Origin: an uncultured Candidatus Saccharibacteria bacterium
Lineage (GTDB): Bacteria; Patescibacteriota; Saccharimonadia; Saccharimonadales; Saccharimonadaceae
Direction: 5' to 3'
DNA: 64,000 nt
Assembly: GCA_949480205.1 (NCBI GenBank)
Contig: CASXXK010000001.1
Coordinates: 1-64,000 of the forward strand
Shown piece by piece: positions 4,698 to 59,333 of the stretch. A model generated the notes under the pieces. The model ran no database searches. It was not told the origin of the DNA and worked only from the letters and a program-made list of their open reading frames with translations. Both the position numbers and the translations under genes were made by a program. Each line of letters opens with the position of its first letter. Position 1 is the first letter of the stretch.

Positions 4698-4703
4698 TAT
4701 AAT
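4698..4703 (+). promoter_or_regulatory. -10 box of cassette element C1
   Basis: Perfect TATAAT preceded by TTGC, 4 nt before the first hairpin of the conserved C1 element. The other three elements of this class have -10-like hexamers at the same place (TATAGT 37533, TACAAT 41451, TAAAAT 58902), so the hairpin would lie at the 5' end of the transcript. Confidence 0.6.
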
Positions 4704-4707
4704 ATAC

Positions 4708-5170
4708 CCATGGACACTCCGTCCATGGGGCCCAAAGGCGGCCTGAGCTCACTCCTCCGCCAGCCGGCGGTTCTCTCTGTCAAAGATCGTGAAGTTCCCC
4801 TCTATAGTTTCAAGAGAAAAGTTGAGGTTTGATGAATTGCGGCTATGGTCGTAATATTGCAAGTGTTCTTCTTTACCTAGCGCCATTTTTGGTCGTTTTC
4901 TGACGGGGTTTCTGCAGGGTTGTTTTCGTGCGCAGCGGGTACATCAACTTACCCGGCGTTAGCGGCGCGACTTATAGGAACGCTGGCATCAACGGGTACG
5001 ATTGGTCGTCGCGGGGCTCCGCTACGCGTCATGATGGCGCGGCCATCCCTAGCGGTTACAACCTCGGATTCAATGCCACTGGCGTGAACCCGTCGAATGG
5101 CCCGAATGAGCGCTGGCACGGTTTCCCCCTCCGCTGCCTTTCTTGTGCCGCGGCGAGGTGCCGATCTTTG
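4708..5170 (+). ncRNA. Candidate structured RNA enclosing cassette C1
   Basis: One of four elements (C1, C4, C5, C6) sharing the same layout. H1: hairpin CCATGGAC/GTCCATGG (4708-4715 with 4721-4728). H2: CCGCC-AGCC-GGCGG (4757-4770). H3: long-range pair CAAAGATCG (4781-4789) with CGATCTTTG (5162-5170), bracketing the whole cassette. H5: CCTC with GAGG just downstream of GATCGTGAAGTTC. H6: a weaker 3' hairpin of CCTCCGC with GCGGcgAGG near 5130-5158. The H4 helix seen in the other three copies is poor here. Stems keep pairing while bases differ between copies, which argues for RNA function. A terminator-like stem follows at 5181-5221. Function is unknown. Confidence 0.55.
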
Positions 5171-18307: not shown

Positions 18308-18583
18308 CTACCTAGAAGTGTAGCATAAAATATGTAAATTGTCAATATTATTATATTCTGTTCGCCCTATGGCTACATGTCCTAATACAGTACTAAGGCA
18401 GCGGAGGGGGAAACCGTTATAACGGCTCGGCGCTCCAGATGGGGCTACGACATCAGCAATAATTCTAAGCACAAAACTTTCATAGTTAGTAGCGTATGCT
18501 CGTGCAGACCACCAATAACCGCGTGCATTGACATAGCTTAAACTGCCAGTAGTGGTAGGCAAAGTAATCCACCCGCTGCGCAC
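18308..18583 (-). CDS. Orphan FISUMP/DUF1566-like C-terminal domain, cassette C2
   Basis: Minus-strand frame from GTG 18583: VRSGWITLPTTTG..., NARGYWWSARAYA, a variable middle, then SRYNGFPLRCLSTVLGH. The domain part ends near 18390; the C-terminal extension runs into the promoter of the neighbouring gene. No Shine-Dalgarno or longer N-terminal protein precedes it. C2 is head-to-head with C3, and the two share an almost identical 41-bp 3' end (CTTAGTACTGTATTA and flanks). Unlike C1, C4, C5 and C6 it lacks the structured RNA leader. Translation is uncertain. Confidence 0.4.
   Translation of the reverse strand: MRSGWITLPTTTGSLSYVNARGYWWSARAYATNYESFVLRIIADVVAPSGAPSRYNGFPLRCLSTVLGHVAIGRTEYNNIDNLHILCYTSR
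18317..18345 (-). promoter_or_regulatory. Near-consensus promoter for the 232-aa gene
   Basis: TTGACA (18340-18345) and TACACT (18317-18322) on the minus strand, 17-nt spacer ending TATGC. It overlaps the 3' end of the cassette C2 frame. Confidence 0.8.
18374..18414 (-). repeat. Left arm of 41-bp inverted repeat (3' end of C2)
   Basis: Reverse complement of 19017-19057 except for a single-base insertion. Together the arms bound a ~640-bp block holding both cassettes and their shared intergenic region. Confidence 0.85.
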
Positions 18584-18848
18584 AACTTTTTACCGGTTAT
18601 GCTTGTTAATTTGAGAAAATTTGTTATATGCTGAAATGGGGTAACGAGCAGCTCGACAAACCAAAGGTCGTCAAGGTGGGGAGAAGGGAGAGTTGCATAT
18701 GGTTATAGAACTTGGGCGTGTTCGTCTAATTCTAGGTGTCAAAGCCAAGATTAGCGTTATTCCTAAGAAACAACGCTAATCAGCTGTATAAAACTTAAAC
18801 CTATTCTAACAACCAAACAATAGGACGTCAAGACCCGTTATCCCCTTC
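18584..18848. promoter_or_regulatory. Divergent intergenic region between cassettes C2 and C3
   Basis: It holds promoter-like pairs pointing both ways: TTGTTA, 16 nt, TATATG toward C3 (about 18603-18630), and on the minus strand TTGTTA, 16 nt, TATACA toward C2 (about 18784-18812). A perfect 10-bp hairpin GATTAGCGTT/AACGCTAATC sits at 18749-18781. The leader helices of C1/C4/C5/C6 are not found here. Confidence 0.45.
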
Positions 18849-19058
18849 GTGCGCAGTGGGTATTTTGACCTATCAATTAGCAATGGTACCTTAACGGTTG
18901 CCGGGCAATATGGCTATGAAAGATCATCACGCTCATATGTGTCAGACATATATGCTTATTTCTTCTCTTTCAATACCAACACCGTTGAACCATCCAATGG
19001 TGCTAACCGTTGGGGAGGTTTCCCCCTCCGCTGCCTTAGTACTGTATTAGACATGTAA
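18849..19058 (+). CDS. Orphan FISUMP/DUF1566-like C-terminal domain, cassette C3
   Basis: From GTG 18849: VRSGYFDLSISNGTLTV, then QYGYERSSRSYV, variable middle, NTNTVEPSNGANRWGGFPLRCLSTVLDM and stop. It is preceded by the common border TTCGTGCGCAG and no ribosome site. It is the most divergent body of the six in its middle (YERSSR instead of NWWSSR). Only the C-terminal part of the domain is present. Confidence 0.42.
   Translation: MRSGYFDLSISNGTLTVAGQYGYERSSRSYVSDIYAYFFSFNTNTVEPSNGANRWGGFPLRCLSTVLDM
19017..19057 (+). repeat. Right arm of 41-bp inverted repeat (3' end of C3)
   Basis: Matches 18374-18414 in inverted orientation with one single-base indel; includes the border common to all six cassettes plus CTTAGTACTGTATTA, which is specific to C2 and C3. 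Confidence 0.85.
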
Positions 19059-37514: not shown

Positions 37515-37545
37515 GAATTTATTATAGCATGATATAGTAATTTTG

Positions 37546-37987
37546 TGGATACATCATCCATGGAGCCCAAAAGTAATCCGAGTTCACTCCTCCGCCTACT
37601 TGCGGTCTTCAATGTAAAAGATCGTGAAGTTCACCTCTAAATCTTATAAGAGAAAGTGTGAGGTTGGTAGAATTTTTGAGCTATGGCACAAAAATTGCGA
37701 TAATTGAACTTCTAAACTTACGTGAGATAGTGAGGTAGTTGGATTTGATAGTTTCGTGCGCAGCGCGCGTATCAATTTGACCGTTTCGGCAGGTACATTA
37801 GGGTACGCTGGCCAGAACGGCAACTGGTGGTCGTCGCGGGCGGCTGCTTATACATCGAGTACTTCGGCTAATGCTTACAACCTCAATTTTAATGCTACAG
37901 CGGTCAACCCGTCGAATGGTCCGTCTAACCGTTGGAACGGTTTCCCCCTCCGCTGCCTTAGTTTGTGCCGCGGAGGGTGCCGATCTT
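37546..37987 (+). ncRNA. Candidate structured RNA enclosing cassette C4
   Basis: H1 TGGAT-ACATC-ATCCA (37546-37560); H2 CCGC/GCGG (37592-37605); H3 long-range AAGATCG (37618-37624) with CGATCTT (37981-37987); H4 GAAGTTC (37626-37632) with GAACTTC (37706-37712); H5 ACCTC (37633-37637) with GAGGT (37670-37674) inside H4; H6 CCCTCCGC (37946-37953) with GCGGAGGG (37970-37977). A TATAGT -10 lies at 37533-37538. All helices of the family are complete here, making C4 the best reference copy. A strong terminator follows. Confidence 0.6.
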
Positions 37988-37989
37988 AA
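37756..37989 (+). CDS. Orphan FISUMP/DUF1566-like C-terminal domain, cassette C4
   Basis: From GTG 37756: VRSARINLTVSAG, AGQNGNWWSSRAAA, a variable stretch, AYNLNFNATAVNPSNG and SNRWNGFPLRCLSLC. Preceded by the TTCGTGCGCAG border; an in-frame TGA is 10 codons upstream and no ribosome site is convincing. The last residues are encoded by the 3' H6 hairpin. Either a silent cassette or a very short product. Confidence 0.45.
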   Translation: MRSARINLTVSAGTLGYAGQNGNWWSSRAAAYTSSTSANAYNLNFNATAVNPSNGPSNRWNGFPLRCLSLCRGGCRS

Positions 37990-37996
37990 AACACAA

Positions 37997-38028
37997 AAAA
38001 GATGTTACTATACAGTAACATCTTTTTT
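37997..38028 (+). terminator. Terminator of element C4
   Basis: AAGATGTTACT/AGTAACATCTT perfect stem, loop ATAC, then TTTTTT. Confidence 0.9.
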
Positions 38029-39214: not shown

Positions 39215-40168
39215 ATGGACGAAAATTGGCTAGCAAACGTAAAAATCGCGCATAAAACTGGCAAATCAGTTGGATTAGTACAAGGTTCTTGGGATTTGTT
39301 CCATCTTGGACACTTGCGTTACATTATGAAGGCTCGCGCGTTATGTGATTTTCTCGTGATTGCGATGGACAGCGACGAAAAAATCCGCAAGCGCAAAGGA
39401 CCAACTCGCCCCGTAATTCCAGAAAAGGAGCGCTACGAGTTTATCAAATTACTGAACATTGCCGACGCGGTCGTAATTAAGCAAGCAAATGAGCCAAAAT
39501 GGCACTTAATCAAAACTGTGCGACCAGACGTTTTAGTAGCAATCAAGGAAAATTACACCGACGAGCAGATTGAGCAGCTAAAGAAATATTGTGGCGACGT
39601 GGCAGTGCTACCACGTCAGGCAAAAACTTCGACTTCGGACAAGATTCGTCAAATTACTTTGAACAGTCGTTTACGAAAAGTGGACGGCGTGGAAGAAAAA
39701 GTAGCCAAAGCGGCGGCCGGCATGAAAAAACGTATTCATTACTCTAAAGAGATGCCTGAACCAATACCTGGACTACTGAAGGAGTTACGTAAATCTACGG
39801 ATGACGTTTGCCCAGTAGCAGCAGCGTGCTGGTGGAATGGGCAGTGGGTATATGCAAGTAACCAAATTGATTTTACAATTCCAGAATACGATACAACAAA
39901 ACGTACTGAATTGTTTTATGATACAGTCGAGCATTCAGAAATTAATTTGCTGAAGAAATTGGGGAAAGTTGAAACGTTAGAAAATACACCTATTTATATT
40001 ACGTTGTTCCCTTGCGGCCGCTGCATGAAAGTGTTGGCAAATAAAGGCGTGAAGGAAATCTATTATCTAGAAGATCATCCAGAGCGAAATTGGAGTAAAC
40101 GTTCACACGCGCTTGCCGAGAAAAAAGGCATTAAAACGATTTGCTTGGTTGAGGAAGAAAATGAATAA
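39215..40168 (+). CDS. Fusion of a cytidylyltransferase-like domain with a deoxycytidylate-deaminase-like domain, 317 aa
   Basis: Residues about 15-135 are a nucleotidyltransferase: GSWDLFHLGHLRYIMKA carries the HxGH motif and TSTSDKIR the C-terminal ISSTxxR-like motif. Residues about 175-310 are a zinc-dependent deaminase: EHSEINLL (His and Glu) and FPCGRCMKVLANKGVKEI (PCxxC). The unusual fusion sits 15 nt after thyA, so the deaminase half likely makes dUMP for thyA; the transferase substrate is unknown. The gene overlaps the HIT gene by 8 nt. Confidence 0.85.
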   Translation: MDENWLANVKIAHKTGKSVGLVQGSWDLFHLGHLRYIMKARALCDFLVIAMDSDEKIRKRKGPTRPVIPEKERYEFIKLLNIADAVVIKQANEPKWHLIKTVRPDVLVAIKENYTDEQIEQLKKYCGDVAVLPRQAKTSTSDKIRQITLNSRLRKVDGVEEKVAKAAAGMKKRIHYSKEMPEPIPGLLKELRKSTDDVCPVAAACWWNGQWVYASNQIDFTIPEYDTTKRTELFYDTVEHSEINLLKKLGKVETLENTPIYITLFPCGRCMKVLANKGVKEIYYLEDHPERNWSKRSHALAEKKGIKTICLVEEENE

Positions 40169-41367: not shown

Positions 41368-41463
41368 GTTTGTTCTCCCGATTAAAATTTACTATGCTTT
41401 GTATATATTATACTATTTTTCTTGATTTTTACTAGAGCCAAGAATAATGTTACAATCAAATCG

Positions 41464-41927
41464 TGGACAAGTGGTCCATGGAGCCCAAAAGCAGCCAAGT
41501 TCACTCCTTCGCTAGCTGGCGGTCTTCAGAAAAAGATCGTGAAGTTCTCCTTATACCGTCAAAAGAAACGAACAAGGTTAGTTTTAGGCTATAATTATGG
41601 TTATTTCCTAGAAAATGAACTTCTTTACCGATGTTGACGTCATTCGGGTTGCTGAGATATGCTGGAGGCGTTCGATAGTTGATTACTTCGTGCGCAGCGG
41701 GAACTTCAATTTGGCTAATACTGCTGGCGTCCTTAGGAACGCTGGCCAGAACGGCAACTGGTGGTCGTCGCGTGGGGCTGATAATGTCTGGGGCTCAGCT
41801 GGGCTGGGCGGTTACAACCTCGAATTCAATGCTAATGATGTGAACCCGTCGAATGGTCCGACGAATCGTTACATCGGTTTCCCCCTCCGCTGCCTTATGT
41901 TTTTGCCGCGGTGGGTGCCGATCTTTT
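41464..41927 (+). ncRNA. Candidate structured RNA enclosing cassette C5
   Basis: H1 TGGAC-AAGTG-GTCCA (41464-41478); H2 TCGCT-AGCT-GGCGG (41509-41522, with two G-U pairs); H3 long-range AAAAGATCG (41531-41539) with CGATCTTTT (41919-41927); H4 GAAGTTC (41541-41547) with GAACTTC (41617-41623); H5 CCTT (41549-41552) with AAGG (41574-41577), where C1 and C4 have CCTC/GAGG; H6 CCCTCCGC (41883-41890) with GCGGTGGG (41908-41915, one mismatch). -10 TACAAT at 41451-41456. It ends 12 nt before tRNA-Leu without its own terminator. Confidence 0.6.
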
Positions 41928-58865: not shown

Positions 58866-58914
58866 CTGTTCATAATTTTCCAGAGGTAATTTGTAGCATG
58901 CTAAAATTAGTTAG

Positions 58915-59333
58915 TGGAGCATTCTCCATGGAGTCCAAGGGCGGCCCAAGTTCACTCCTTCGCCAGCCGGCGGCCTTCAACAAAAGATCGTGAAGTTCCC
59001 CTTTAATTCTAAAAAGAGAGAAGAAGGTTTGAAAATTTCCGACCACGGTCTGAAAGCATTAAGTGAACTTCTATATCCAAGACCATACTGTTTTGCGTGA
59101 GTCTAGTAGCTTATCGTTCGTGCGCAGCGGGTACCTCCGTCCAGTTGAGGGCGTGTCACGCAACGCTGGCATCAACGGCAACTGGTGGTCATCCCGGTCT
59201 TACTCTGATGCCACCAACGCTTACAACCTCAATTTTAACGCTAGCGATGTCAACCCGTCAAACAACAGCAATCGTTACTACGGTTTCTCCCTCCGCTGCC
59301 TTATGTTTTTGCCGCGGTGGGTGCCGATCTTTT
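58915..59333 (+). ncRNA. Candidate structured RNA enclosing cassette C6
   Basis: H1 TGGAG-CATT-CTCCA (58915-58928); H2 TCGCC-AGCC-GGCGG (58960-58973); H3 long-range AAAAGATCG (58982-58990) with CGATCTTTT (59325-59333); H4 GAAGTTC (58992-58998) with GAACTTC (59065-59071); H5 CCTT (59000-59003) with AAGG (59024-59027); H6 CCCTCCGC (59289-59296) with GCGGTGGG (59314-59321, one mismatch). -10 TAAAAT at 58902-58907 with TGC before it. A strong terminator follows. Confidence 0.6.

Follow-up and report, generated by a model that had tools for sequence, protein, structure and literature searches.

The window, i.e., the whole 64,000-nucleotide stretch that was analysed, makes up the opening 64 kb of contig C1 in a Candidatus Saccharibacteria genome (G000; 855 kb, 28 contigs, 87.6% complete). 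Four copies of a common layout (named C1, C4, C5 and C6 after their cassettes) are found in it: a -10-like box is followed by a structured 5' leader, a short insert with an open frame, and the 3' arm of a long-range helix, H3, whose 5' arm lies in the leader (Table 1). This layout had been described in a sequence-only reading of the window and is borne out in all four copies, as is its absence from the cassettes C2 and C3. Helices H1, H3, H4 and H5 of that reading are likewise present and covary across 44 copies, H5 being CCTC/GAGG in C1 and C4 and CCTT/AAGG in C5 and C6; H4 of C1 is imperfect (GAAGTTC/GTTCTTC). The window also carries a gene (39215-40168) encoding a cytidylyltransferase-like and then a cytidine-deaminase-like domain.

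Table 1. Features of the structured copies and of the cassettes; positions are those of the window unless a locus or contig is named.
Feature	Position	Strand	Evidence or remark
-10 box TATAGT, C4	37533..37538	+	conserved box in 40/44 copies
Structured 5' leader, C4 (H1, three-stem domain, H4, H5, H6)	37547..37718	+	model R1 150.1 bits, E 8e-34; covariation
H1 hairpin GGAT/ATCC, C4	37547..37559	+	covariation
Three-stem branched domain (stems A, B, C), C4	37562..37610	+	14/15 compensatory pairs; replaces H2
H3 5' arm AAAGATCG, C4	37617..37624	+	found in 44/44 copies
H4, C4	37626-37632 with 37706-37712	+	covariation; encloses H5 and H6
H5, C4	37634-37637/37660-37663	+	covariation
H6, C4	37675-37681/37686-37692	+	covariation
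Template repeat (TR), C4, 207 nt, FVRSARINL...FPLRCL	37753..37959	+	without gene body; 3' end IMH-like CCCCCTCCGCTGCCTT
H3 3' arm CGATCTTAA within motif GGTGCCGATCTT, C4	37981..37989	+	44/44 copies
Terminator-like stem-loop, C4	37994..38029	+	symmetric; scan found it on the - strand
Template RNA C1	4698..5170	+	165 bits; -10 4698-4703, leader 4712-4877, TR 4925-5140, H3 3' arm 5162-5170
Template RNA C5	41451..41927	+	150.1 bits; -10 41451-41456, leader 41465-41629, TR 41687-41896, H3 3' arm 41919-41927
Template RNA C6	58902..59372	+	155.2 bits; -10 58902-58907, leader 58916-59077, TR 59117-59302, H3 3' arm 59325-59333, then terminator-like hairpin
C2, variable-type cassette (recipient)	18395..18583	-	without template RNA flanks
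C3, variable-type cassette	18849..19037	+	divergent partner of C2
Divergent cassette pairs, examples	18395-19037; C9:8138-/8531+
tRNA-adjacent template copies	38041, 41940, 59374; L070 3119, L042 3039, L040 2258, L044 2568

The four copies belong to a ten-member structured RNA family in G000, whose leaders align with few gaps; RNAalifold applied to these ten leaders returned 33 pairs, 19 of them with compensatory changes. A covariance model, R1 (167 positions, 37 pairs), was built from the same leaders. The sequence-only reading had named covariation in a larger alignment as the check on a conserved RNA, and in an alignment of 44 copies drawn from the nine genomes of the genus found to carry the RNA (see below) covarying pairs are indeed present. 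Compensatory changes on both sides occur there in 34 of 37 pairs and 92.8% of cells are paired; since this alignment had been made to fit the model, such counts are biased in favour of the structure. The covariation score was 0.566, against 0.225 +- 0.009 for shuffled alignments and 0.06-0.13 for slid partners, and every covariation measure exceeded all 500 shuffles and all slid controls. With the initial MAFFT alignment, made without such fitting, RNAalifold recovered the same main helices except H1, which MAFFT had misaligned. The folding energy of a single copy is unremarkable (z -1.66) and was discarded as support; the case for the fold therefore rests on covariation.

Within the leader, a helix absent from the sequence-only reading, H6, is among the best covarying, whereas the helix H2 proposed there (YCGCY/GGCGG) held only in part: its bases are 88% paired, but one pair of five covaries, and they are accommodated better in a three-stem branched domain with compensatory change in 14 of its 15 pairs. 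H3 was checked on its own as it spans the insert. It was found in all 44 copies with arms 307-436 nt apart and a mean of 8.45 of 9 positions paired, of which the outermost carries little weight because the score used for choosing partners included pairing; most partners stand in a fixed context, GGTGC or GTGCC. In G057 and G014, AAAGATCG/CGATCTTT is replaced by GGAGATCG/CGATCTCC, the outer pairs changing together from A-U to G-C, and in G013 the helix is partly swapped (GGAAGATCG/CGATCTTCC). A hairpin of the template 3' end with the tail was predicted in C4; it varies among copies and is not claimed.

To assess the distribution of the RNA, R1 was used on 147 genomes of the genus. It was detected in nine of them, G000 and eight others, and the copy number across these nine genomes ranges from 1 to 19: 19 in G161, 12 in G056, 10 in G000, 8 in G040, 6 in G014, 4 in G057 and one each in G013, G059 and G113. 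Across the order, with stricter filters, matches among 295 genomes were confined to G000 and the same-genus G059, with none in the 142 other genera sampled. No Rfam family scored at or near its gathering threshold, the best being a chance snoRNA match (E 0.36, 18.9 bits vs 40 needed). Since R1 is specific to few genomes and covariation lies above all shuffles and slid controls, the structured RNA is not a chance pattern. Seven of the ten G000 copies are located within ~100 nt of a tRNA gene, five of the seven convergently. In G057, a 5.6-kb contig (L134, G057:C63) carries six template RNAs in the same orientation, two of which are weak matches.

Forty of the 44 copies have a -10-like box (TANRMT) no more than 24 nt ahead of H1, 26 of them at one spacing, compared with 21 of 132 background windows; the C4 box, TATAGT, preceded by TG, is a near match. 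This conserved box suggests that each copy is transcribed independently, with a start at H1.

Over ~60-70 codons the insert reads as an open frame (FVRSG...FPLRCL) that is similar to the C-terminal portion of a FISUMP domain; the short insert frames alone gave no Pfam match, whereas full-length relatives do match. Its 3' end, GGTTTCCCCCTCCGCTGCCT, has 93 matches in G000 at up to 3 mismatches (reversed control pattern, 0). Eighty-five of these sites were read with their flanks: ten lie in the structured RNA and 75 do not, the latter ending in a different, nearly invariant CTTAGTACTGTATTAGACATG. Both kinds, ten templates and ~75 variable cassettes, share a 3' boundary. Most of the latter are only ~200 bp long, have no gene body and often stand in divergent 5'-to-5' pairs. 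In three pairs of cassettes from different loci the two sequences agree completely or almost completely, and their sharp 5' ends fall at (T)CGTGCGCAGCGG. A neighbour species has no cassettes at the place of one pair, the junctions not being clean.

Several further observations concern the cassettes. Their 3' tail is lineage-specific, being TAGTACTGTATTAG in G000 and G056 and different in G059, G113, G040 and G161. A tandem array of six cassettes is present at L158. Paired cassettes can be separated by palindromic or double-hairpin spacers of several families (L045, L048, L058, L063), and a TTAACAGAGGT-like linker is common to some inter-cassette spacers. These may mark a site at which recombination or insertion takes place. 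By eye, no consistent core site of an integron-type attC was seen at variable-cassette 3' ends.

Comparison of each G000 cassette with its closest structured copy revealed that the differences fall mainly at adenines in codon positions 1 and 2 (0.376 vs 0.148, p 2e-41, with sites treated as independent). The same bias was found in G059 (0.454/0.140) and G113 (0.514/0.185), where a single template was found in each and no choice of parent is involved; odds ratios were 3.5-5.1. The differences also run one way. Changes from adenine outnumber changes to adenine by 70 to 17 in the six closest G000 pairs, 91 to 12 in G059 and 71 to 13 in G113, while the template-template control is symmetric (77 and 82). 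Because of this one-way, adenine-directed pattern, absent in the control, the structured copies are assigned as donors and the C2/C3-type cassettes as recipients, which on these sequence comparisons is the signature of mutagenic retrohoming by a diversity-generating retroelement (DGR).

In G000 the divergence between templates and cassettes appears old. Over all its template/variable pairs the raw adenine rate is weak (0.44 vs 0.23-0.34), probably as many cassettes are old, and in the closest pair 14 of 22 mismatches are at adenines (64%); the usual DGR share is 75% (PMC8144416), and values of 76-81% were obtained for the closest clean pairs in G059 and G113. Recent activity in G000 is therefore only a possibility.

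Variable repeats are also found at the 3' end of FISUMP genes in G040 and G057. The G040 gene is a full-length target of 620 aa (L210) and has the same tail as the orphan cassettes of that genome. The only FISUMP gene found in G000 (L095 12457-13902, 482 aa) is truncated by the end of contig C20 ahead of its variable part; the assembly is fragmented precisely at cassette repeats.

A DGR-type reverse transcriptase (RT) is encoded by an intact ORF on another contig of G000 (G000:C2:65811-67010). Pfam RVT_1 had found only an AbiP2 RT, which at first suggested that this genome has no DGR RT; that reading was rejected when the RT of a relative, used as protein query, led to the intact gene. The protein carries IVIGNLTSQ, in agreement with the DGR pattern [IVL]GxxxSQ, and YVDD. 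Its best PDB match is the 8ub7-8ube set (E 2e-20, carrying IGSLTSQL), which we take to be the Bordetella DGR RT. The AbiP2-type defence RT (L001 1102-2607, G000:C8; PADLOC E 7e-173) is not of DGR type.

In five species the RNA adjoins the RT: in G113, G059 and G161 it follows the RT match in the same orientation, its start ~30-310 nt further on, and in G013 it lies ~700 nt away and convergent. The fifth case, L200 (CANOGH010000027.1), came from a prediction test in which GTDB species were scanned with the RT alone. Four loci were returned, G056, G113, G059 and the previously unseen L200, where a template RNA lies 101 nt after the RT match, as predicted. In all, the RNA occurs in nine related species. 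In a tree of 25 RTs, the ten RTs of RNA-bearing genomes form one group (support 86/73, or 99/98 with one neighbour), so that all ten such genomes have an RT of this group; the only other RT in the tree from an RNA-bearing genome is a distant second RT of G040. No template RNA stands beside the RT in G000 or G056, and the ten G000 templates must therefore act in trans, if at all. An ORF of 331-359 aa precedes the RT in G000, G013, G059 and G113; it has no Pfam or PHROG match, and an Avd-like role is a candidate. After the RT in G000 (L191 from ~5009, G000:C2), and at the same place in G056 (L185), there is a conserved TATAAT...CGGGGATACCCG...CCCCAG...CTGGGG-T-run element; it sits where other species have the template RNA and is perhaps a small RNA or a remnant.

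Three options had been named in the sequence-only reading, namely template RNA, mobile RNA element and regulator, of which the first is supported. The insert fits a DGR template repeat, and we regard it as very probable that the structured RNA is the template RNA of a DGR. If the copies were instead silent gene fragments recombining as DNA, in the manner of pilS or vls donors, with flanks that are merely conserved DNA, the insert, an open coding fragment without a gene body, would suit them, and the identical variable cassettes with sharp ends at different loci indicate that DNA-level cassette exchange probably does occur. Yet DNA donors would not be expected to show compensatory pairing, a -10 box of their own or a link with one RT group, nor would gene conversion be expected to leave one-way, adenine-focused differences; we consider this explanation very unlikely as a whole. 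It is disfavoured for the structured copies and may hold for the C2/C3 type.

A mobile, retrotransposon-like RNA that carries the cassette as chance cargo would account for the spread from 1 to 19 copies between species as its own multiplication, and the frequent placing beside tRNA genes would suit it too. However, the 37.5-kb copy (C4) is at the same place in G056, within a 3-kb alignment of 84% identity, and the template/variable relation together with RT adjacency explains the RNA without self-mobility, which leaves this possibility improbable. An extremely unlikely candidate is a cis-regulatory or retron-like RNA that would regulate a downstream frame or prime multicopy single-stranded DNA. 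A long closing helix round a copied segment is superficially retron-like, but the RT is of DGR type and not a retron RT, Rfam offers no match, and downstream of C4, C5 and C6 one finds a terminator or a convergent tRNA gene rather than a gene to regulate. Retron ncRNA (msr-msd) does resemble the DGR template RNA proposed here as a structured RNA round a segment copied to DNA; it differs in RT type, adenine mutagenesis and the separate recipient repeats.

With the RNA taken as a DGR template RNA, the following mechanism can be proposed. Each template copy would be transcribed from H1. On the evidence of covariation, its leader folds into H1, the branched three-stem domain and the H4-H5-H6 domain, and H3 closes the molecule round the template repeat, leaving the leader and 3' tail as a scaffold presenting it. 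We infer that the DGR RT recognises this leader/H3 scaffold in trans and copies the repeat, placing random bases opposite adenines, with priming probably in the 3' tail near GGTGCCGATCTT. The cDNA would replace variable repeats with the invariant 3' end CCCCCTCCGCTGCC, as the adenine-directed differences and homology to Bordetella suggest, and integration may take place at the invariant GC-rich boundary. In this way, ten different templates would feed ~75 variable cassettes; one or more full-length target genes of FISUMP type are probably supplied as well.

The system resembles the DGR of Bordetella phage BPP-1 (avd-TR-brt) in its template repeat, GC-rich 3' boundary, adenine-directed mutagenesis and homologous RT. 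A structured spacer 3' of the TR is what recruits RT-Avd in BPP-1, where an internal adenine serves as the primer of cDNA synthesis (PMC12875486). Here, in contrast, most of the structure is 5' of the TR and H3 joins both sides; by analogy, the 5' structure and H3 could do the same job. Whereas BPP-1 has all parts in one locus with a single TR, the ten copies here stand apart from the RT, each with a -10 box of its own. The analysis thereby provides a DGR template RNA fold, defined by covariation, beyond that of Bordetella, and no Rfam family matches it.

Cell-encoded DGRs of the CPR are represented by clade 2, found in Patescibacteria (Roux et al. 2021, PMC8144416); the RTs described here probably belong to it. 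For a DGR to be counted, that large survey demands a repeat no more than 1 kb from the RT, and scattered templates would therefore be missed by it. Remote targets are a feature shared with the DGRs of Treponema denticola (PMC4891356) and Thiohalocapsa PB-PSB1 (PMC10907252), and in the latter they are proposed to be diversified in trans (PMC10907252). As far as the available text of these two sources goes, they describe several TR variants in a species and several DGR loci in one genome (PMC4891356, PMC10907252), and mention no group of free-standing template RNAs that have a single conserved fold in common and depend on a single RT. In a literature comparison made without two central DGR papers, nothing was found on one RT serving ten to nineteen free-standing template RNAs. 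What is new, on this comparison, is the arrangement: the fold is conserved and comes with a putative promoter of its own, the ten templates are remote from the RT, and the ~75 cassettes are mostly gene-less.

Considering this arrangement, we tentatively raise the possibility, which we hold to be rather doubtful, of a multi-template DGR in which one RT serves a number of free-standing templates, recognising them by their common scaffold fold, and writes into a genome-wide store of gene-less cassettes; variants from this store would pass by recombination into expressed surface-protein genes. A silent cassette archive feeding expressed genes would fit. If true, hypermutation by an RT would be combined with a silent-cassette archive. 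The parts described here are those needed for testing recognition of many templates in trans by a single RT. The results also suggest that templates are undercounted in DGR surveys which insist on a repeat next to the RT. For a genome of less than 1 Mb, ten templates and ~75 cassettes devoted to protein variation would be striking.
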